From an uncultured Desulfotomaculum sp. (lineage in GTDB: Bacteria > Bacillota > Desulfotomaculia > Desulfotomaculales > Desulfotomaculaceae): a stretch of DNA of 36,010 nucleotides. The DNA lies in the NCBI GenBank assembly GCA_946411205.1, contig CAMKDG010000025.1, positions 1 to 36,010 of the forward strand. Direction: 5' to 3'. The notes below the pieces were generated by a model, which searched no databases, had not been told where the DNA came from, and worked only from the letters and a program-made list of their open reading frames with translations. The position numbers were made by a program, and so were the translations under genes. This document shows, one piece after another, positions 2,101 through 11,770 of the stretch (within the stretch, counting starts at the first letter, position 1; every line of letters begins with the position of its first letter).

Positions 2101-3657
2101 TTAAATTTCCAGGGACCCAGTTGTGTCTGATTCCTTCATCATTCTTTTGTTTTCGACAACCTGGAAGAGTGCCAGTGTGGCAGCCAGGAAGATGTAACCC
2201 AACGAAATCATGGGAGACTGATTTAAACCTACCGCTTCGCCGTGGATAAAACCCGTAAAGGATACTACCGTGCCAAAGAGAGCGAAGCCAGCGGCTTTGT
2301 TAAATTGCTTGTCAATGATAAAGGTAGTAATCGCTCCCCAAATGAGTCCGGCCAGAATGGCACCGCCACCCAAGTGAACCAGCCCTTCAAAGAGAACACC
2401 ATTTTGCGCCAGGGAACCGACCATTTCCGGGGAAGGTGGGAATTTACCGGCAGTTTGCAGAGTATTGTTAACCAGACCACCGGCCCAAGAGGCAAAGGCC
2501 GGTATCATGGCCAGAACCACTGCAGGAGCGTGACGCTTCGGTGTTTCCTGGAAGGCTAGGGCGCAGATGAGGGCACCGATGTAAATGAGAATGGGCTGAA
2601 TGGCAGCCATTGGTATTAAAGCGAACAGTACATTCATTAAGCCTAACCAGGTAAGAATAAGCACGACGATGCCTGTAGCAATGGAGTAGCCAATGCGGCC
2701 GCCAGCCTGTTTCCAGCCTGGGTGACCAATATATACGGCGTTGGCAAAGGGACTGCCTAGCATGGTACCGGCAATACAAATGGCTCCAACACAGAGAATG
2801 ACGCTACGCTCGTTGTATTCATCACCTGTGGTGGCAGCACTCTCCACATTATCCATCGCTTCAATAAAATCATAGATGCCGAAAGGAATTGCCGTAACCA
2901 GCAAGGGTGCTATTTGGTCAAAACCTTTGAAAAGGTCACCGATGGCTAAAGAAGGGAGATGAAGGCCAAAATTAGCAAAGGATGCGCTGAGATTGGCTAT
3001 TGACATGGAACCTGTTAGCCAGCCAATGGCCGAACCCACTACGATGGCGACTAGTCCCGCCGGAAGGTTGCCGGGAAAGCGGAAACTGGCGAAAAAACCG
3101 GTAAAAACGATGGCAAAGCAGACAAAGCCGATAATTGGCGAACTAAGAATTTCCATAGAAGGCTTCATCGTAATAAAGGCCAGAGAAGTACCTGCTAAGG
3201 CTCCCAACAGGGCAGCACGGGGAGTGATGCGCCGGATAAGTGGAGCAAAAAACGACCCGATAATGCAAACAAGTCCAACGATGAAAACCCAAGCCATACC
3301 CGCCCGCCAGGCCAAGAGTGGATCGCCGGTAACTGCCTTAACGGGCAGCATAACGACCAGACAAACGATAAACATGTGGGGTACACTGGTACCTGAGGGC
3401 AGGGCGGTGACATCCATTCGGCCGGTTCGTTCCGCCAGTTTTTTCGCCATATAAGCGAAGCAGAGATTGGTGGCACAAAGCATAATGCCCACTGCTGGGA
3501 GGATGCGCCCAAACACCAATTCAGCAGGTAGCTGTACGGCAAAGAGTAAGAGTCCGGTCATTACCAGGAGGTTTAATATGCTGTTCGTGCCAAGACCAAA
3601 GAGAGCATTCCAATCACCGTGAACCCAAAGTGGGGCACGCATTTGTTGATTTGACAT
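2101..3657 (-). CDS. NCS2-like nucleobase/ureide permease
   Basis: Polytopic inner-membrane protein of 518 residues with about 12-14 hydrophobic segments. It starts with ATG behind a GGAGG site. Features resembling the NCS2/AzgA xanthine-uracil permease superfamily are the N-terminal FGLGTNSILNLLVMTGLLL, the polar DVTALPSGTSVPHMF re-entrant-like segment, and acidic residues in IPFGIYDFIEAMDNVESA where the family carries its substrate-binding glutamate. It is the last gene of the leftward arm (71 bp after the amidase gene). The likely role is uptake of the ureide or amide that the neighbouring enzymes degrade. The substrate is inferred from context only, and the subfamily could be a more distant NCS2 branch. 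Confidence 0.85.
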   Translation of the reverse strand: MSNQQMRAPLWVHGDWNALFGLGTNSILNLLVMTGLLLFAVQLPAELVFGRILPAVGIMLCATNLCFAYMAKKLAERTGRMDVTALPSGTSVPHMFIVCLVVMLPVKAVTGDPLLAWRAGMAWVFIVGLVCIIGSFFAPLIRRITPRAALLGALAGTSLAFITMKPSMEILSSPIIGFVCFAIVFTGFFASFRFPGNLPAGLVAIVVGSAIGWLTGSMSIANLSASFANFGLHLPSLAIGDLFKGFDQIAPLLVTAIPFGIYDFIEAMDNVESAATTGDEYNERSVILCVGAICIAGTMLGSPFANAVYIGHPGWKQAGGRIGYSIATGIVVLILTWLGLMNVLFALIPMAAIQPILIYIGALICALAFQETPKRHAPAVVLAMIPAFASWAGGLVNNTLQTAGKFPPSPEMVGSLAQNGVLFEGLVHLGGGAILAGLIWGAITTFIIDKQFNKAAGFALFGTVVSFTGFIHGEAVGLNQSPMISLGYIFLAATLALFQVVENKRMMKESDTTGSLEI

Positions 3658-3728: not shown

Positions 3729-4394
3729 CTAGGCCGAGAGGGCGGCGATGGCTTTGGATGAGTTGGAAACCCAGCCAAATATCGCTCCCTGGGCCTTAAT
3801 CATCATCAGGGCGTATTTTTGGAATTCTGGGAAATAAGAACCTACGCAATCTTCCAGGACGATACATTCGTAACCACGGTCATTGGCTTCCCGGAGGGTG
3901 GTAGTTACGCATACCTCCGTTGTGACACCGCAGAAAAGTAGCGTTTTGATACCCCGCGTCTGCAGGATGAGATGCAGGTCGGTGGCATAGAAGGCACCCT
4001 TGCCGGGTTTGTCAATAACAGGTTCACCCGCGATGGGATACAGTTCGGGGATGATGTCGTGTCCCTTTTCTCCCCGTACCAGGATGCGTCCGCAGGGACC
4101 TGGGGTGCCGATGAAGGTTTTGCCGCCCCGGGTGAGTTTCGCCGGCGGACAATCGGACAAGTCAGGGCGATGGCCTTCGCGGGTGTGGACGACCATAATG
4201 CCAGCCTTACGGGCCGCTTCCAGCACCTGTTGGCAAGGTTCGATGGTCGAACGCAGCAGAGAAACATCATTGCCAAGTAACTCACCAAAGCCGCCAGGTT
4301 CAACGAAATCACGTTGCATGTCGATTATGATGAGGGCAGTTGTAACCGGATCAAATTGTAAATCAAAGGGATCTGCCTGAATGGTCTTTAACAT
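3729..4394 (-). CDS. Isochorismatase-fold amidase, biuret-hydrolase-like
   Basis: Cysteine hydrolase of the isochorismatase/N-carbamoylsarcosine amidase fold, 221 residues. The ATG at 4394 is chosen because AAAGGAGA precedes it at good spacing; the longer ORF-track start lacks a site. Catalytic triad candidates are Asp25 (IIIDMQRDF), Lys129 or Lys132 (DKPGKGAF) and Cys162 ([11 protein letters not shown]). The segments [48 protein letters not shown] and VSNS match, from memory, biuret amidohydrolase (BiuH) and triuret hydrolase closely. Those enzymes cut biuret to allophanate plus ammonia. The neighbouring carbamoyltransferase and carbamate kinase genes support a ureide-type substrate. The exact substrate could instead be another N-carbamoyl amide. 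Confidence 0.88.
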
Positions 4395-4417: not shown

Positions 4418-4801
4418 TTATTGTTTCGAGGCCAAGTAGGCCCGCCAACCACCATAAGCTGTAATTTCAGGCTGGTCTTGACAGAGGAAGGGCTCGCCCA
4501 GTACACCTAAAACGATGCTGTCGTCCTGTAGCAATACTTTGCCAATGACCAGACCAGGTGGTTCATTTAGGAGAACCGAGGCCAATCCGGCAAGCGGCAC
4601 TTGCCAAATTTCCAAATCAATGCTATTTCCTTCACCGGGGGTGCGAAGCATAGCCGGATGTCGGTCACCAATACTCCAGATACGATAACAAGCAGCCGTT
4701 TGGTCTTCGCGGACAAAGGTGGCTCCCACATCCAGCAGATTTTTATTGAGTTCGAGATCTCGCATGAGTGTTCCGTTGACCGCTAATAGGGCAGTTTTCA
4801 T
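4418..4801 (-). CDS. Stand-alone allophanate hydrolase C-terminal-like protein
   Basis: Small soluble protein of 127 residues, and first gene of the leftward arm. ATG at 4801 follows AAGGAG by 8 bases. The in-frame TTG at 4804 is less well spaced. The N-terminal [16 protein letters not shown] (a gamma-glutamylcyclotransferase-like opening), the central [14 protein letters not shown] and [12 protein letters not shown], and the end [15 protein letters not shown] resemble the C-terminal domain fused to the amidase in AtzF/DUR1-type allophanate hydrolases. That domain acts after the amidase step, on N-carboxycarbamate. Here no amidase-signature domain is attached. The stop lies 23 bp before the amidase start, so the two are co-transcribed. 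A role in processing an unstable carboxylated or carbamoylated intermediate is inferred. Confidence 0.75.
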
Positions 4802-4879
4802 CAATTTAGCTCCTTCGTTTTTTCTGTGAAATTGTTGCGTTGGTCATCTCGTAGGGAGTTTGTCGCCAATTTTAGGGTT

Positions 4880-4957
4880 ATTATAACAGGGTCAGAATTT
4901 TTTGTCTTCGTGACTTCACGCCGAAACTACCCTGGTCTGTTTGTCACTTGGTGCCAA
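4880..4957 (-). promoter_or_regulatory. Conserved regulon promoter of the leftward operon
   Basis: Read on the minus strand: TTGGCACCAAGTGACAA, 15 bases, TTCGGCG, 7 bases, then ACGAAGACAAAAAATTCT leading to TATAAT. Within this, AAGACA (poor -35) and TATAAT are exactly 17 bp apart. The same three blocks occur at the same spacing before allH (6769-6846). The weak -35 with upstream conserved sites suggests activator-dependent transcription, presumably by the adjacent PucR protein. Confidence 0.75.
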
Positions 4958-4972
4958 CACATTGACAAACAG
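4937..4972. promoter_or_regulatory. Inverted-repeat operator next to pucR
   Basis: Perfect 10-bp inverted repeat CTGTTTGTCA / TGACAAACAG separated by 16 bases, with a small TTGG/CCAA dyad inside the spacer. Its left half overlaps the conserved upstream block of the leftward operon, and its right half overlaps the likely pucR -35. One bound regulator could therefore activate the permease operon and repress its own gene. Confidence 0.6.
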
Positions 4973-4990
4973 TAGGAAAAATGATTTTAT
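4962..4990 (+). promoter_or_regulatory. Putative pucR promoter
   Basis: TTGACA at 4962-4967 and TTTTAT at 4985-4990, separated by 17 bp. The -35 is consensus; the -10 matches at 4 of 6 positions. It lies 49 bp before the pucR start and overlaps the right arm of the inverted repeat. Confidence 0.5.
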
Positions 4991-5038
4991 GGAAATGTGT
5001 GAATGATAAGAATATTTGAGGTTGGCAGGTGATTGTAA

Positions 5039-6718
5039 ATGGGAATCACAATCCGGCAGGCGCTGGCACTCCCCGAATTGGCAGAGGTACAAGTGGCAGC
5101 CGGAGCTGGCGGACTTGACCGGGTCATTCAGACGGTCTCCGTGATGGAGGTGCCGGATATCTCGGCCTTTGTGGAAGCCGGGGAGTTGTTGCTGACGACA
5201 ACGTATCCAATATGCAACAACACGAACGTTCTAGATCAACTGGTTCCCATGCTGGCTGCCCGGGGGTTGGTGGGGCTTGCCATTAAGCCCGAACGGTATA
5301 TTGACAGTATTCCCTCTCGGATGATTGAGCAAGCTAATGCACTGGATTTTCCCCTTCTCCAGCTGCCGAAAGAACCTTCCTTTACCAAAATATTAAATAC
5401 CATTTTGAGCGAAATTCTGCATCAACAAGCGAATTTGTTACGATACAGTGAATCAATCCACCGCAGCTTGACTGATTTGGTACTGCGTGGTGCTGGGTCT
5501 GATTTACTGGTGAGAACATTGTCAGACCTAATAAAACTGCCAGTTGTTTTCACGAACCCTAATATGGAGGTATTGGTTACGTCCGTTAAGGGTGAAAGCA
5601 TGGACAAACTATTTAGGGAGCTACTGCCGGCTTTTAAGGAGAAACGTGGCTTTACCAGTGTCGATGAACCAGTTCGGTACACCGTAAAGGATAGCGATGC
5701 GGTTTCAAGTGTATTTGTTCATCCGGTCAAGGCCGGTAAGGAGATTTTTGGCTATATCTGTGTTGGGGAAAAGGATGATCAGCTACTGTCCATTGGCGCC
5801 ATTGCCGTAGAGCAGGCGGCGGTAGCCTTAGCTCTGGACGTTCAGAAAAAACGAGCGGTTGAAGAAATGGAACGGCGATTTCTCAATGATTTTGTACGCG
5901 ACTTATTAGATGGACGAATCAGTTCCAGCACCGAGATGAAAGTGCGTGGCCGGGTTTATGGTTGGGATGCTGAACTGCCCTTGGTGCTTTTGGCTATCGA
6001 GATCGTGGCAGACCAAGCTTCTAGCACTTCAGTTCCGGTAAGTATAGATCATAAGATGCAGCAGCAGCAGCAAATTGAACGGGCCATTCTTCGGGAACCA
6101 AGCATTACTCCAGCCAACACGCTGGTAGCACATCTGGGAGATATCACGGCGGTTTTTCTTAAACCTGCTACCCATCATGAAGAGACAACAAAAAGAGAAG
6201 CCCGCCAACTGGCTGAGCGAATCTTAAATAAGCTGAGCACCTATGCCCATAAAGAAGGGTATCGAATCAGTATTGGCATCTCGCGAGTGTGCACGGAGGT
6301 AAAGGATTTTGGGAGGTCCTTCCGGGAGGCTTGTGAAGCGGTACAGATTCACGAACAATCGGAGCTATCTCAAACAGTGGTGCACTATGATGATTTAGGC
6401 GTTTACCGGTTATTGGCCAGAATTGACGACAGAGAGGAACTGGAACGGTTCTGTAGAGAAAGGCTCAACAAGCTTCTCGACTATGATGCAAAGAGCGGTG
6501 CAGCCTTGATTGAGACCTTGGGTGCCATCATTAAGGCGAATGGTAACCTCCAACGTGCTTCTGAATTATTGTTCATTCACTACAATACCCTGCGATACAG
6601 AGTAAAAAAAATCGAGACGTTGGCCGGTATCAAGCTCGACTCCTGGCAGGCGATGATGGAGGTGTCCCTGGCACTCAAAGCCTACCATATCCTGCAAGTT
6701 CACAAGAAGGAACTATAA
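5039..6718 (+). CDS. pucR: PucR-family transcriptional regulator
   Basis: Regulator of purine/ureide-type catabolism, 559 residues. The N-terminal PucR domain (about 5-125) carries TVSVMEVPDISAFVEAGELLLTT. A GAF-like/CdaR middle follows, and a C-terminal PucR-type helix-turn-helix (about 490-535) reads NGNLQRASELLFIHYNTLRYRVKKI. ATG at 5039 follows AGGTGA by 6 bases. In Bacillus, PucR activates ureide genes in response to an intermediate such as allantoin. Here the gene sits between the two arms of the locus and is transcribed away from the amidase/permease arm. The conserved promoter blocks on both sides are the best candidates for its binding sites. Its effector probably is the imported compound or a product. 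The gene has its own terminator. Confidence 0.93.
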   Translation: MGITIRQALALPELAEVQVAAGAGGLDRVIQTVSVMEVPDISAFVEAGELLLTTTYPICNNTNVLDQLVPMLAARGLVGLAIKPERYIDSIPSRMIEQANALDFPLLQLPKEPSFTKILNTILSEILHQQANLLRYSESIHRSLTDLVLRGAGSDLLVRTLSDLIKLPVVFTNPNMEVLVTSVKGESMDKLFRELLPAFKEKRGFTSVDEPVRYTVKDSDAVSSVFVHPVKAGKEIFGYICVGEKDDQLLSIGAIAVEQAAVALALDVQKKRAVEEMERRFLNDFVRDLLDGRISSSTEMKVRGRVYGWDAELPLVLLAIEIVADQASSTSVPVSIDHKMQQQQQIERAILREPSITPANTLVAHLGDITAVFLKPATHHEETTKREARQLAERILNKLSTYAHKEGYRISIGISRVCTEVKDFGRSFREACEAVQIHEQSELSQTVVHYDDLGVYRLLARIDDREELERFCRERLNKLLDYDAKSGAALIETLGAIIKANGNLQRASELLFIHYNTLRYRVKKIETLAGIKLDSWQAMMEVSLALKAYHILQVHKKEL

Positions 6719-6737
6719 AAATCGGAGACATTTATGA

Positions 6738-6767
6738 CAGAACAGTGAAAAGCTGTTCTGTTTTTTA
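6738..6767 (+). terminator. Intrinsic terminator after pucR
   Basis: Perfect 8-bp stem CAGAACAG/CTGTTCTG with a 7-base loop, followed by TTTTTTATTT. It separates pucR from the allH-allF-allG-arcC operon, which therefore needs its own promoter; that promoter's upstream block begins at the end of this T-run. Confidence 0.9.
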
Positions 6768-6768
6768 T

Positions 6769-6846
6769 TTGGCACCAGGTGACAATAATGCTCCTATCAA
6801 TTCGGCGGTAGCTTACGAAGACAACAAATTGTCTGATTGCTACAAT
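6769..6846 (+). promoter_or_regulatory. Conserved regulon promoter of the allH operon
   Basis: TTGGCACCAGGTGACAA, 15 bases, TTCGGCG, 7 bases, then ACGAAGACAACAAATTGT leading to TACAAT. AAGACA to TACAAT is 17 bp. Block order and all distances equal those on the minus strand at 4957-4880. A further dyad AGACAA-caaa-TTGTCT (6819-6834) lies over the -35/spacer and could be a second contact site. Confidence 0.75.
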
Positions 6847-6899
6847 GAATATAGATTCCGTAGAGAAACCAAACAAACAGATTGGGGAAGGGAAGAACC

Positions 6900-7814
6900 A
6901 TGGTTAACAGCATCCTGCAAGCAGTGTCTGTTGATGCCGGTATCATAAAAAAGATTGGCAAACCAGGATTTCTCGGCATGGTGCATAGTGTTTTTGACCA
7001 TGCCATAAATTTTACCGACATGCAGGGACATTTACTTACAGTGGTGTCCCATCATACTGACGATGCGCCACAGACCATTAGAGTCCGCCTGCCCGACGGT
7101 TATACCTTTAAGGACGCAGGGGTGATGCCAGGGTACAAGGTTACTTCCCACAGAAAAAGTTTGTCCTTTGGAGGCAAAGTACCAATAGATATAACTACGC
7201 CGTTGGTGTGGCAAGGCCATTTGCCGACCTTTCCACGGCTCGACCAAAGATCGGCATTGGTGGCAAATTTGACCGTTCTACGGGAGGTCATTCGCCACCA
7301 TGGTTCTGCTGGTGGCATGAAAGTGTTCTATGATGCTGATGTCTGTGAGGAGAAGAACCTCTTTGCCCGGGAGTTAAAGACCAGGGCCAAGCGACTACTG
7401 GATCTTCTTGGTTGTGGGCAATATACCCTGGCAGCCGAAGCTGGGCAGTCCTTACTGGGGTTGGGCTGTGGGCACACGCCAGCAGGGGATGATTTTTTAG
7501 CCGGACTTATCACGGTGTGGCATCTGCCGGAAGGGCCTTTTGATTTAGTGTATCAAGAATTAGGGCAGAAGTTGGCCGATGCTGCCCGCAGTCGGACGAC
7601 CGCAGTAAGCCATGCCATGCTGAACTTAGCAGCCAATGGTCGCGCCCGAGCCAGGGTCATCAGCCTCCTGGAAAGTATGACTGACTGCAAGAAACAATCG
7701 ATTCTTCAAGCGGTCCACGAAATACTGAAAATTGGCTCCAGCTCTGGCACCGACTTGGCAGTGGGGCTAGCAGCCGGGTTGGAACTAGGTTTGCATAAGG
7801 CCAAGTTTTACTAA
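6900..7814 (+). CDS. allH: DUF2877 protein, AllH-like carbamoyltransferase subunit
   Basis: Cytoplasmic DUF2877 protein, 304 residues. ATG 6900 with GGGAAGGGA upstream is preferred to the TTG at 6882. The family signature GLGCGHTPAGDDFLAG is intact near residue 200, followed by a C-terminal GSSSGTDLAVGLAAGL. In E. coli the homologous YlbF (AllH) is reported to form oxamate carbamoyltransferase (EC 2.1.3.5) with AllF (FdrA) and AllG (YlbE), which releases oxamate and carbamoyl phosphate from oxalurate. Here it heads the operon allH-allF-allG-carbamate kinase, the same gene set. The carbamoyl donor in this organism is unproven, since no allantoin genes lie nearby. Confidence 0.88.
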   Translation: MVNSILQAVSVDAGIIKKIGKPGFLGMVHSVFDHAINFTDMQGHLLTVVSHHTDDAPQTIRVRLPDGYTFKDAGVMPGYKVTSHRKSLSFGGKVPIDITTPLVWQGHLPTFPRLDQRSALVANLTVLREVIRHHGSAGGMKVFYDADVCEEKNLFARELKTRAKRLLDLLGCGQYTLAAEAGQSLLGLGCGHTPAGDDFLAGLITVWHLPEGPFDLVYQELGQKLADAARSRTTAVSHAMLNLAANGRARARVISLLESMTDCKKQSILQAVHEILKIGSSSGTDLAVGLAAGLELGLHKAKFY

Positions 7815-7835
7815 ACAAAGTAGAGGAGGGAAACT

Positions 7836-9380
7836 ATGGGTGCACAGGTTCAGGTTTTAGTTAAAAAGAATTCCTATCACGATTCTGTTACTTTAATGGC
7901 CCTCTCAGGTAAGGTTACGGCCTTATCCCAGGTGCAGGAAGCGGTTGTTGCCATGGCAACTGACATGAATAAAGAGCTGCTCCAAAGCGTAGGTATGTTG
8001 ACAGCTGAGGCGGCGTCCTGTGGTGCCAATGATTTAGTGATTGCTATTAAAGCGGCTAGTCTAGAAGCTTGTACCGAAGGGATTAAGGCTGCTGAAGAAA
8101 TGCTGGTCAAAAGGAAAACCGGTAAAAAGACCGACGCACCTAGGCCCGCAACTATTCGTTCAGCAGTGAAGGAAACACCCGCTGCCAATATCGCCATTAT
8201 TTCCGTTCCCGGCGAACATGCTGCTCGGGAAGCCAGAGAAGCTTTACAGAATGGCCTACACGTGCTCTTATTTAGCGATAATGTCTCCATCGAGGATGAG
8301 AAGATGCTGAAAGAGTTAGCCCACAGCCATGGCCTGCTAATGATGGGGCCCGACTGTGGTACCGCTATCATTAATCATGTGGGTCTGTGTTTTGCCAACA
8401 AGGTGCGTCACGGCAACATTGGCATTGTGGGTGCATCCGGCACTGGACTGCAGGAGATTACTGTTCTGATTGACCGTTTTGGCAGTGGTGTATCGCAGGT
8501 TATCGGTACCGGCGGCAGAGATCTGAGCGAGCAGATTGGCGGCATTATGATGCTTGATGCCTTGGACGCTCTAGGTCAGGATGAACTGACGGAAGTCATT
8601 GTATTAGTTTCTAAACCACCTGCCAAATCCGTTGCGGAAAAAATCCTGGACCGCGCTAAGGAAATAGAAAAACCCGTAGTCGTCTGTTTTATTAACGGCG
8701 ATACGGCTCAAATCGAAGCTGCTGGCGCTTATGCCGCTCACAGCCTGGAAGATGCGGCGTGGCAAGCAGTTCAGTTAGCCAAAAAGGAGCAACCCCTTAC
8801 GGCTAACCAAGATGACGCTACACCAATCCTGGCAGCAGCAACGAAGGCCAAGCTTCAGGCAGGACAAAAATATGTCCGTGGTTTGTATTGCGGCGGCACA
8901 TTATGCGATGAGGCTCAGAATATTGTGAAACGTTCCGTTGGCACGGTGTACAGCAACATTGCCAAGCAGGAAGTGTATCGGTTGCCTGATCCCCAGGAGA
9001 GCCGGGAGCATACTTTTATCGACTTAGGGGATGACACTTTCACAGTGGGCCGACCCCACCCGATGATAGAACCTAGTTTGCGTTTAGCCAGGCTGGTACA
9101 GGAGGCAAAGGACCCGGAAGTGGCCGTTATCCTATTGGATATTGTACTGGGCTATGGTGCACATAGCGACCCAGCCGGCGTTATTTTGCCGGCAATTCTT
9201 GAGGCAAGGAAGCTAGCTGCCGCCGAGGGGCGTTATCTGAAGATGATTGCTTATGTGTGTGGTACCGGCAGTGACAAACAGAATAAGGTCGAGCAGGAGC
9301 ACAAACTGGCCACAGCCGGTGTGACTTTGGCAGAAAGCAACGCAGCGGCAGCGAGGTTGGCGGCTGCCATCGTATCGTAA
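7836..9380 (+). CDS. fdrA: FdrA/AllF, acyl-CoA-synthetase-like carbamoyltransferase subunit
   Basis: FdrA-type protein of 514 residues, full length, starting with ATG behind GAGGAGGG, 21 bp after allH. Its architecture is like succinyl-CoA synthetase alpha/beta fusions. A CoA-ligase-like nucleotide-fold segment reads GIVGASGTGLQEI, followed by GTGGRDLSEQIGG. A catalytic-loop-like MGPDCGTAII precedes these, and the C-terminal part has VILLDIVLGYGAHSDPAG. In E. coli the homologue is a subunit of oxamate carbamoyltransferase. It likely provides the phosphate or carbamoyl-phosphate site of the complex (inference). It was formerly annotated as a suppressor of FtsH mutations, which is not its metabolic role. 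Confidence 0.92.
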   Translation: MGAQVQVLVKKNSYHDSVTLMALSGKVTALSQVQEAVVAMATDMNKELLQSVGMLTAEAASCGANDLVIAIKAASLEACTEGIKAAEEMLVKRKTGKKTDAPRPATIRSAVKETPAANIAIISVPGEHAAREAREALQNGLHVLLFSDNVSIEDEKMLKELAHSHGLLMMGPDCGTAIINHVGLCFANKVRHGNIGIVGASGTGLQEITVLIDRFGSGVSQVIGTGGRDLSEQIGGIMMLDALDALGQDELTEVIVLVSKPPAKSVAEKILDRAKEIEKPVVVCFINGDTAQIEAAGAYAAHSLEDAAWQAVQLAKKEQPLTANQDDATPILAAATKAKLQAGQKYVRGLYCGGTLCDEAQNIVKRSVGTVYSNIAKQEVYRLPDPQESREHTFIDLGDDTFTVGRPHPMIEPSLRLARLVQEAKDPEVAVILLDIVLGYGAHSDPAGVILPAILEARKLAAAEGRYLKMIAYVCGTGSDKQNKVEQEHKLATAGVTLAESNAAAARLAAAIVS

Positions 9381-9393
9381 AGGGGGAGCACAA

Positions 9394-10836
9394 ATGGGCA
9401 ATGTGAAAGAACTGTTCCAACAAAAGCTAACAGCCCTTACCATTGGCACTTCCATTTTTCAGGAGGATTTGGAGCAACAGGGTGTAGAGGTTATTCAACT
9501 GGATTGGCAACCCGCTGCTGGCGGAAATATGGCGTTACTTAAGGCGCTGGATAAGCTAGCAATGAATGAAAGGGTTCAGGAAGCCAATGCTCGGGCAGTT
9601 GAAATCATGCTGAGCGCCAACCCAATTTTGGTGGATATAGATGCTGCCAGCAAGGTTATTCCCGGCATGACCCGGTACACGATTTTACACTCCGGGCCGC
9701 CGATCACCTGGGAGCGAATGTGTGGTCCGATGCAAGGCGCTGTCATTGGTGCGTTACTCTATGAGGGCTTGGCGGGCAACGAAGAGGAGGCCGTAGCACT
9801 GGCCGGCTCAGGCAAGATTACCTTTGCCCCTTGCCATGAGTACGGTGCGGTAGGTCCCATGGCCGGGATTATTTCAGCCTCCATGCCGGTTCATGTGGTG
9901 CAGAACCAAACCCATGGCAATTTCAGCTATTGTACAGTTAACGAAGGTTTAGGCAAGGTGCTACGGTATGGTGCCTTTAACGAAGAAGTACTTACCCGAT
10001 TAAAATGGATTGCCGAAGAGTTGGCTCCAGCGATGAAAGCGGCCCTTGCCCTGTCCGGCGGCATCGATTTGCGCAGCCTGATTGCCCAGGCCCTTCATAT
10101 GGGGGATGAATGCCACAACCGCAACAAGGCAGGCAGTAGTCTCTTTGTCCGCCTGATCGCGCCCTACTTCCTGAAAGCTGACATTCCCCGAGATGTAGCA
10201 GTCCGAGTGTTGGAATTTATCCAGAGTAACGATCATTACTTTCTCAACCTGTCCATGCCAGCCTGCAAAGCGGCCATGGATGCCGCCCATGGTATTCCCT
10301 ACTCCAGCATTGTAACAACCATGGCCCGCAACGGCGTGGATTTTGGTATCCGAGTTAGCGGTTGTCCTAGTGATCGGTGGTTCACCGGCCCTGCCCAAAT
10401 GATTGAAGGTCTTTTATTCCCAGGTTTTACGGCCAGTGATGCCAATCCGGATATCGGTGACAGCGCCATTACGGAAACCATGGGAATTGGCGGGTTTGCC
10501 ATGGGCGGCGCTCCTGCCATCGTTCAGTTTGTCGGTGGTACCGTAGAGGAAGCTATCGCGTACAGTCTGCAAATGTATGAAATAACCACTGGCGAAAACC
10601 CCAATTATTCCATCCCAAACCTAGATTTTCGTGGTGCACCGACCGGTATTGATATTTGTAAGGTGGTACAAAGTGGTCGACTACCCATCATCAATACCGG
10701 AATGGCCCATAAGAAAGCAGGGATCGGACAGGTGGGCGCGGGTTTGGTCAGCCCGCCTCGTGAATGCTTCAACAGTGCGCTGCTGGCGTTATACGAATGT
10801 ATTGAGGCGGAAGAGGTGAGCGGCAGCAATGGATAA
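9394..10836 (+). CDS. allG: DUF1116 protein, AllG-like carbamoyltransferase subunit
   Basis: DUF1116 protein of 480 residues starting behind AAGGGGGAG, 13 bp after fdrA. Recognisable family segments are GPPITWERMCGPMQGAV, CHEYGAVGPMAGIISAS, VVQNQTHGNFSYCTVNEGLG and the Gly-rich MGIGGFAMGGAPAIVQFVGG. E. coli YlbE (AllG) is the third component of oxamate carbamoyltransferase. Length and motifs look complete. Its last 8 bases overlap the start of the carbamate kinase gene, so translational coupling with the enzyme that consumes carbamoyl phosphate is likely. Confidence 0.92.
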   Translation: MGNVKELFQQKLTALTIGTSIFQEDLEQQGVEVIQLDWQPAAGGNMALLKALDKLAMNERVQEANARAVEIMLSANPILVDIDAASKVIPGMTRYTILHSGPPITWERMCGPMQGAVIGALLYEGLAGNEEEAVALAGSGKITFAPCHEYGAVGPMAGIISASMPVHVVQNQTHGNFSYCTVNEGLGKVLRYGAFNEEVLTRLKWIAEELAPAMKAALALSGGIDLRSLIAQALHMGDECHNRNKAGSSLFVRLIAPYFLKADIPRDVAVRVLEFIQSNDHYFLNLSMPACKAAMDAAHGIPYSSIVTTMARNGVDFGIRVSGCPSDRWFTGPAQMIEGLLFPGFTASDANPDIGDSAITETMGIGGFAMGGAPAIVQFVGGTVEEAIAYSLQMYEITTGENPNYSIPNLDFRGAPTGIDICKVVQSGRLPIINTGMAHKKAGIGQVGAGLVSPPRECFNSALLALYECIEAEEVSGSNG

Positions 10837-11770
10837 GACAATTGTTCTGGCCTTTGGTGGTAATGCCATTGTAAAGTCCTGGGAAAAAGGGTCTCGCGAT
10901 GAGCAATGGAACAATATTAAAAAAACTTGCCAAACCGTAGCGGAATTACTAAAACAGGGGCATCGTATTGTCATTACCCATGGGAATGGGCCGCAAGCAG
11001 GCAATATTCTGATAAAAAATGAGATGGCTAAAGACATTTTGCCAGCCATGCCGCTGGACGTAATTGTTTCCAACACCCAGGGCGCCATTGGTTACGCCAT
11101 TGCCCAGACAATGGGTAACTACTTTGCCAGCATCGGGCTGGATATTCCTGTTGTCGCAATTGTTACCCAGGTGGTTGTTCATCCTGACGACCCAGCCTTT
11201 GAGATGCCGACTAAATTCATTGGACCCTTCTTTTCGCGTGAAGAAGCCCAGGCAATTATGCAGCAAAAGGGCCATATCATGCGGGAGGACAGCGGCAGAG
11301 GTTGGCGACGGGTAGTTCCGTCGCCGGAACCGATAGAAATTATCGAGAAGCAGACGATCAAAAAACTGTTGGATGAAGGTGTATTGGTTGTAGCTGTGGG
11401 TGGCGGCGGTATCCCTGTGGTGCGCAGCGAAGCGGGCTTAGCCGGTGTGGAAGCGGTCATTGACAAAGATATGGCCGGACAATGCCTGGCAGATGATATC
11501 GGTGCAGACATGCTGATAGTACTCACCGAAGTTGACAGAGTTTGTATCAACTTTGGTAAGCCAGATCAAAAGGAACTGCCCCACATGACGGTTGCTGAGG
11601 CCAAGAGGTACCAAGAAGCAGGGCAGTTTCCGCCAGGGAGTATGGGGCCAAAGGTCGAGGCTGCTATTCGCTTTGCCCTTTCTGGGGCTGGGCGTCAGAG
11701 CGCTATCGTTTCCTTGGAAAATGCACATAAAGTATTCACCGGTGAACGGGGTACGATCATAACACAGTGA
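10829..11770 (+). CDS. arcC: Carbamate kinase
   Basis: Catalyses carbamoyl phosphate + ADP to ATP + carbamate, which decomposes to ammonia and CO2. Its 313 residues match the usual 300-315. Motifs of the amino acid kinase fold are LAFGGNAI at the N-terminus, VITHGNGPQAGN, VAVGGGGIPV and the C-terminal PGSMGPKVEAAIRFA. It is the last gene of the carbamoyltransferase operon, so it is the functional counterpart of catabolic E. coli AllK rather than of the arginine deiminase pathway; no arcA or arcB is present in the window. It is the inferred energy-conserving step of the locus. Confidence 0.96.
   Translation: MDKTIVLAFGGNAIVKSWEKGSRDEQWNNIKKTCQTVAELLKQGHRIVITHGNGPQAGNILIKNEMAKDILPAMPLDVIVSNTQGAIGYAIAQTMGNYFASIGLDIPVVAIVTQVVVHPDDPAFEMPTKFIGPFFSREEAQAIMQQKGHIMREDSGRGWRRVVPSPEPIEIIEKQTIKKLLDEGVLVVAVGGGGIPVVRSEAGLAGVEAVIDKDMAGQCLADDIGADMLIVLTEVDRVCINFGKPDQKELPHMTVAEAKRYQEAGQFPPGSMGPKVEAAIRFALSGAGRQSAIVSLENAHKVFTGERGTIITQ

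Follow-up and report, generated by a model that had tools for sequence, protein, structure and literature searches.

Triuret is a urea-like waste compound. It has been reported in human urine, and the gene of its hydrolase, trtA, occurs in only 1-2% of genomes (PMC7948467). The product of TrtA is carboxybiuret, an N-carboxylate that decarboxylates spontaneously (half-life about 20 min), and six consensus positions tell TrtA from BiuH (PMC7948467). For the carbamoyltransferase AllFGH, oxalurate and oxamate are the only established substrates, and phosphorolysis of oxalurate is reversible (PMC11326118). According to the main text of PMC12625717, trtA/biuH are co-located with allFGHK in nitrifiers. 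This arrangement is known, as are the AH_C family, its fold and the crystal structure of a free-standing member. An E. coli gene cluster resembling the locus described here has been compared with the Rut pathway in one paper (PMC12928451) and was listed earlier without a pathway. In the open-access literature, no paper was found that links a free-standing AH_C protein to TrtA or ties the E. coli operon to triuret, and no enzyme activity of any free-standing AH_C protein.

The free-standing AH_C gene and its protein

The window, that is, the whole stretch of 36,010 nucleotides analysed from an uncultured Desulfotomaculum sp., carries an AH_C gene at 4418..4801 on the minus strand. Its reading frame starts with ATG at 4801, ends with the stop codon at 4418-4420 and specifies 127 aa. 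The start codon is preceded by a good ribosome binding site (GAAGGAGCTAAATTGATG), and the plus strand of 4418-4801 is closed by five in-frame stops. A chance reading frame is ruled out because homologs of 59-77% identity span many phyla; the gene is genuine. A tight operon on the minus strand begins with it and continues, after 23 nt, with a cysteine hydrolase gene (4394..3729) and, after another 71 nt, with a permease gene (3657..2101). A profile search detected no other PF21986 gene in this genome. The gene was not found in eight congeneric genomes or in 91 further relatives, and a search of 399 genomes from the phylum gave, apart from its own, just three remote matches (34-40% identity). 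Because of this patchy presence the gene is considered sporadic and was probably acquired horizontally.

The protein matches the Pfam AH_C family (PF21986) with E=2.7e-37 and 127.9 bits (cut-off 27) over profile positions 3-123 of 123, while the GGACT match of 17.3 bits stays under the cut-off of 22.8. An amidase-signature domain is absent from the reading frame and from the operon, and the operon's hydrolase is isochorismatase-like. Both observations confirm the original prediction, which had described an allophanate-hydrolase C-terminal-like domain not fused to an amidase-signature enzyme, first in an operon whose amidase has another fold. The predicted structure (pLDDT 87.5) matches best 5C5Z, the E. 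coli protein c4763 (TM 0.91), followed by the C domain of K. lactis allophanate hydrolase/urea amidolyase (4ISS/5I8I, TM 0.87-0.88), whereas gamma-glutamylcyclotransferases and relatives rank below (TM 0.53-0.71; 0.53-0.65 for GGCT/GGACT proteins). The structural comparison thus came out as the prediction had expected. Sequence searches with a profile built from 41 homologs ranked the families likewise and returned no cyclotransferase. Plain gamma-glutamylcyclotransferase identity was rejected on fold, profile and gene context.

With c4763 the protein shares 59% identity. In the tree, its close homologs form one clade, separated from the fused AtzF and K. lactis domains by a 100/100 branch; a more distant free-standing protein (L050) groups with the fused domains. 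The free-standing members constitute a separate, old family, so that the separateness noted in the original prediction is correct here but not new, a crystal structure having been available since 2015. Thirty-five alignment columns are invariant across the 41 homologs. The free-standing proteins are marked by VNGTLMRG (VNGTLMRD in the window sequence itself), DRHPAM and Glu80, the fused C domains by V[VC]G[AL]H[LM], Ile or Val at position 80 and the lack of DRH. GAH[LM] is present in five of six fused domains aligned, with GLHM in the sixth, and is missing from the window protein; His12 and like residues of the fused domains are also missing from the free-standing members. In two partial matches to the GGACT profile, Glu80, which is invariant in the free-standing clade (alignment A1), lies at the margin and aligns with roughly position 74, presumably close to the catalytic Glu of cyclotransferases, which stands where the helix following the E.Y/W strand ends. 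Pocket chemistry therefore probably differs from that of the AtzF C domain. Since Glu80 is present and the GAH motif missing, the same half-reaction should not be assumed, and since His12 and the like are missing, the published decarboxylation need not transfer. The strictly conserved polar residues suggest that AH_C may act as a catalyst.

Locus L077 (G441, 8371-8790) encodes an AH_C protein that stands alone but is of the fused, AtzF-like type; an ABC importer and two PII-like genes lie nearby. This protein represents an independent splitting of the domain.

Partner genes in the window and its genome

The cysteine hydrolase (3729..4394, minus strand, 221 aa) finds its best PDB match in TrtA (6XIX, 60% identity, E=1e-80), with BiuH second at 56%. 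All six TrtA markers are present (F35, N41, A134, E160, Y187, I205) and none of the six BiuH alternatives, and the catalytic residues D24/K129/C162 and Q202 are kept. These residues point to the triuret hydrolase type, with triuret as the presumed substrate. The NCBIfam BiuH model NF050097 yielded 288 bits and did not reach its cut-off of 370; an identity as BiuH, first hinted at by NCBIfam, was replaced by TrtA upon residue typing. When relatives were typed by the same six positions, taken from PMC7948467, nearly all were clean TrtA or BiuH; exceptions include the Peptoclostridium protein (four of six TrtA markers) and a few single-residue deviations.

The third gene of the operon (2101..3657, minus strand) specifies a polytopic membrane permease of 518 aa. 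It matched neither a Pfam nor an NCBIfam model nor, by sequence, any PDB entry, and its predicted structure has a pLDDT of 43. Homologs of 49-56% identity lie beside TrtA in L003, L011, L028 and L055 and beside BiuH in L005. The permease recurs beside TrtA in Verrucomicrobia, Proteobacteria, Paroceanicella and Peptoclostridium; the Peptoclostridium homologs are annotated as xanthine permease. The permease probably belongs to an unnamed transporter family for the uptake of triuret or related ureides.

Upstream of the operon, the divergent intergenic region (4802..5038) contains one promoter-like site, AAGACA-17-TATAAT at 4908..4880 on the minus strand, which is not above chance. On its other side, within 5039-11770, plus-strand genes follow for a PucR-family transcriptional regulator (5039..6718; PF07905, E=1.3e-31, PF13556 and PF17853) and, in one cluster, for all three AllFGH subunit families and a carbamate kinase. 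These are an AllH-like subunit (DUF2877) of an oxamate-carbamoyltransferase-type enzyme (6897..7814, alternative TTG start at 6882; PF11392, E=9.6e-26), an AllF/FdrA-like subunit (7836..9380; NF004760, 511 bits, cut-off 433), an AllG (YlbE/DUF1116)-like subunit (9394..10836; PF06545, E=2.4e-100) and a carbamate kinase of AllK/ArcC type (10829..11770; TIGR00746, 403 bits, cut-off 358).

In the rest of the genome, profile searches revealed GatA as the sole amidase-signature protein. AtzF, AtzE and BiuH are absent, urease was not found above the cut-off, and a second hydrolase of TrtA/BiuH type was not detected. Ureidoglycolate dehydrogenase, AllD, was not found with one query run without a positive control. 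Another contig of this genome (C28, L063) carries a hydantoinase-like amidohydrolase gene beside an M20 peptidase gene, which recalls hydA/ygeY, a gene pair known from anaerobic purine degradation.

Gene neighbourhoods of AH_C in other genomes

Among 44 genome loci, TrtA and/or BiuH is encoded in the fetched stretch in 11, and an AtzE-family amidase directly downstream of AH_C in 12, two of which have AtzD upstream as well. Two loci match only by a BMP-type ABC transporter, and 19 have neither. A TrtA/BiuH homolog is present elsewhere in 17 of the 24 tested genomes that have none in the AH_C stretch, against the 1-2% of genomes for which trtA has been reported (PMC7948467). The relatives with TrtA/BiuH belong to five bacterial phyla, those with AtzE to cyanobacteria and Rokubacteria. 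Homologues near fdrA and other ureide genes had been suggested as a check on the original prediction, and the ureide link does hold in five bacterial phyla. The closest homolog, at 77% identity (L002, Sporomusaceae UBA7701), lies beside an aminotransferase gene in a genome without TrtA, which counts against a ureide reading.

Many of the positions of AH_C come after enzymes expected to make allophanate or a related N-carboxylated urea. Five verrucomicrobial, proteobacterial and cyanobacterial loci (L003, L005, L011, L028, L018; one cyanobacterial) combine BiuH, a cupin and AH_C without AtzF, and similar cassettes of Sulfitobacter and Enterobacter hold full-length AtzF. What is missing from the BiuH-cupin-AH_C cassettes is a consumer of allophanate. 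The cupin is a candidate for TrtB. In a genome of Bacillota (G405, L078, 3287-8692), two DUF1989 genes, a biotin-dependent carboxylase of urea/guanidine type and a free AH_C gene stand in a row, and neither a fused AH_C nor any AH_C domain besides the free one was found in that genome. We take this order to be the layout of guanidine degradation, in which AtzF stands last. In several cases, AH_C thus occupies the place where AtzF would be expected. AtzF above the cut-off was detected in none of 26 AH_C genomes and a full-length urease match in 23, but these counts are weak as evidence because the base rates in cyanobacteria are already high for ureABC (85%) and low for ah (13 of 308; PMC6737895). 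On a Paroceanicella plasmid (L055, 7540-11939), an AtzH-like gene is divergent from a TrtA-type hydrolase gene, and the unnamed permease, AtzG and AtzE come after the latter; this is another pairing of a triuret hydrolase with a carboxybiuret hydrolase.

The combination of TrtA-type hydrolase, AH_C, AllF, AllG and carbamate kinase was observed in the window, in E. coli, in Photobacterium (L047) and at one Rokubacterium locus (L012). At least 80% of the operon is contained in 1,550 of 5,426 complete E. coli genomes, more than a quarter, on chromosomes and plasmids. Such a region is annotated, in L049 (7012-14225) and comparable E. coli records, as cysteine hydrolase, DUF2877, FdrA, DUF1116, carbamate kinase, "glutamyl-tRNA amidotransferase" and cytosine permease; the operon also occurs on conjugative plasmids from poultry and human isolates. 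Identities between the window and E. coli amount to 80% for the hydrolase, 59% for AH_C, 44% for AllF and 52% for AllG, and the permease and regulator families differ. In the tree of AllF and AllG, the window groups with Peptoclostridium and K-12 YahF/YahG, the c4763-type E. coli proteins with Photobacterium. This suggests that the sets were assembled separately, more than once, and repeated assembly in turn argues for a functional link. AH_C is not indispensable, because Peptoclostridium has a TrtA-AllFGH-carbamate kinase operon without it.

A possible route for triuret and its alternatives

These arrangements are consistent with AH_C being a free-standing enzyme that acts on an N-carboxylated ureide in triuret catabolism, most simply as an allophanate decarboxylase, with AllFGH making carbamoyl phosphate; we hold this general assignment with about even confidence. 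Carboxybiuret is the aza-homologue of oxalurate, with one inserted NH. The permease would import the ureide, and the TrtA-type hydrolase would convert triuret to carboxybiuret and NH3. The AllFGH-type carbamoyltransferase might then split carboxybiuret by phosphorolysis into carbamoyl phosphate and allophanate, and carbamate kinase would use the former to form ATP. AH_C would decarboxylate the unstable allophanate to urea and CO2 and thereby draw the reversible phosphorolysis forward, so that the route would end in NH3, ATP, CO2 and urea. By analogy, the route can draw on published enzymes for the cleavage of triuret by TrtA, the phosphorolysis of oxalurate by AllFGH and the formation of ATP by carbamate kinase. 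As a complete ATP-yielding pathway from TrtA through AllFGH to carbamate kinase, with free AH_C as allophanate (N-carboxyurea) decarboxylase, in anaerobes and in c4763-carrying E. coli lineages, it is proposed tentatively, at clearly less than even confidence.

The main alternative leads to the same end products by another order of steps: AH_C would stand in for TrtB and decarboxylate carboxybiuret to biuret, which AllFGH would phosphorolyse to carbamoyl phosphate and urea. AH_C does adjoin trtA in the window, L017 and L044, no cupin/TrtB candidate was found at the window, E. coli, Photobacterium and L012 loci, and in Paroceanicella the equivalent place is taken by an AtzH-like decarboxylase gene. 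However, AH_C and the cupin occur together in L003, L005, L011, L018 and L028, so that AH_C does not simply replace the cupin, and the view that it is no more than a substitute is weakened; moreover, biuret does not have the carboxylate of oxalurate. We regard this order of steps as doubtful, though worth serious consideration. AllFGH and carbamate kinase could also serve oxalurate as in E. coli, apart from the triuret genes, with AH_C as a non-catalytic chaperone or delivery factor. AllFGH is proven on oxalurate (PMC11326118), and the main text of PMC12625717 reads the co-location with triuret genes as two separate pathways. Yet AllD, the source of oxalurate, escaped detection in the window genome, with the reservation given above for that query, and the strict conservation of polar residues in AH_C speaks for catalysis, which makes this arrangement unlikely.

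Two further alternatives start from the protein family. AH_C could be the detached half of an allophanate hydrolase, some amidase hydrolysing allophanate and AH_C decarboxylating N-carboxycarbamate, as family, fold and the AtzE amidase neighbouring AH_C in 12 loci would allow. Against this stand GatA as the only amidase-signature protein of the window genome, a control E. coli genome with an AH_C domain and zero PF01425 proteins, and the free-standing members with Glu80 and without the GAH motif. We consider it improbable as an account of the family, and a split AtzF with an amidase partner was rejected for these two genomes on the amidase searches. The original prediction that AH_C replaces the second half-reaction is accordingly unlikely in the strict sense of N-carboxycarbamate after an amidase. 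Lastly, a gamma-glutamylcyclotransferase-like enzyme without ureide link would agree with the cyclotransferase fold, the NGTL motif, the weak GGACT matches and the place of Glu80 in two of them, but AH_C ranks first by a wide margin in structure and sequence, E. coli YtfP was not matched by the 41-homolog profile, and ureide genes surround AH_C in many phyla; this is very improbable. Returning to AH_C as an enzyme of N-carboxylated ureides, the predicted handling or decarboxylation of a carboxylated intermediate is well supported by gene context once the intermediate is taken to come from the cysteine hydrolase, and the original interpretation is, as a whole, partly supported.

A role as allophanate decarboxylase would be a candidate function for a family of small proteins that is widespread and has a solved structure. 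To our knowledge, no function of c4763 is known; this "uropathogenic-specific" protein would gain one. More than one in four complete E. coli genomes carry AH_C with its entire operon, and there the label glutamyl-tRNA amidotransferase is misleading. Triuret would become a source of nitrogen and energy for urease-negative bacteria, the AllFGH family would gain a second substrate, and allophanate a second enzymatic fate, decarboxylation to urea, besides hydrolysis.

Compared with described systems, the C domains of AtzF and of K. lactis allophanate hydrolase/urea amidolyase (4GYR, 4ISS, 5I8I) share Pfam family and fold with AH_C at 26-27% identity, but are fused to an amidase, have the GAH motif and Ile/Val at position 80, and form the separate 100/100 clade. 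TrtB (cited in PMC7948467) and AtzH (PMC6219798) are, like AH_C, small proteins beside makers of N-carboxylated ureides, whose decarboxylation has been reported or proposed for them; the folds of AtzH and of the cupin candidate, which neighbours trtA, are unrelated, and the cupin co-occurs with AH_C in several loci. The oxalurate pathway of E. coli, AllFGH-AllK (PMC11326118), has homologous carbamoyltransferase subunits and carbamate kinase, whereas the window couples them to a TrtA-type hydrolase and AllD was not found in its genome by the search described. The nitrifier clusters also combine triuret/biuret hydrolases with allFGHK; in its main text, PMC12625717 does not mention the gene for AH_C and regards the pathways as two separate ones. 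The nearest counterpart is c4763 (5C5Z), a structure from 2015 entitled "a uropathogenic E. coli-specific protein" and annotated in E. coli as glutamyl-tRNA amidotransferase. It is equally free-standing, of equal length and with equal signature residues, and its operon also includes a TrtA-type hydrolase, AllH/F/G and carbamate kinase. In E. coli, however, it is the last enzyme gene of the operon, accompanied by a cytosine permease and a LysR regulator, while in the window it is the first, accompanied by the unnamed permease and PucR.
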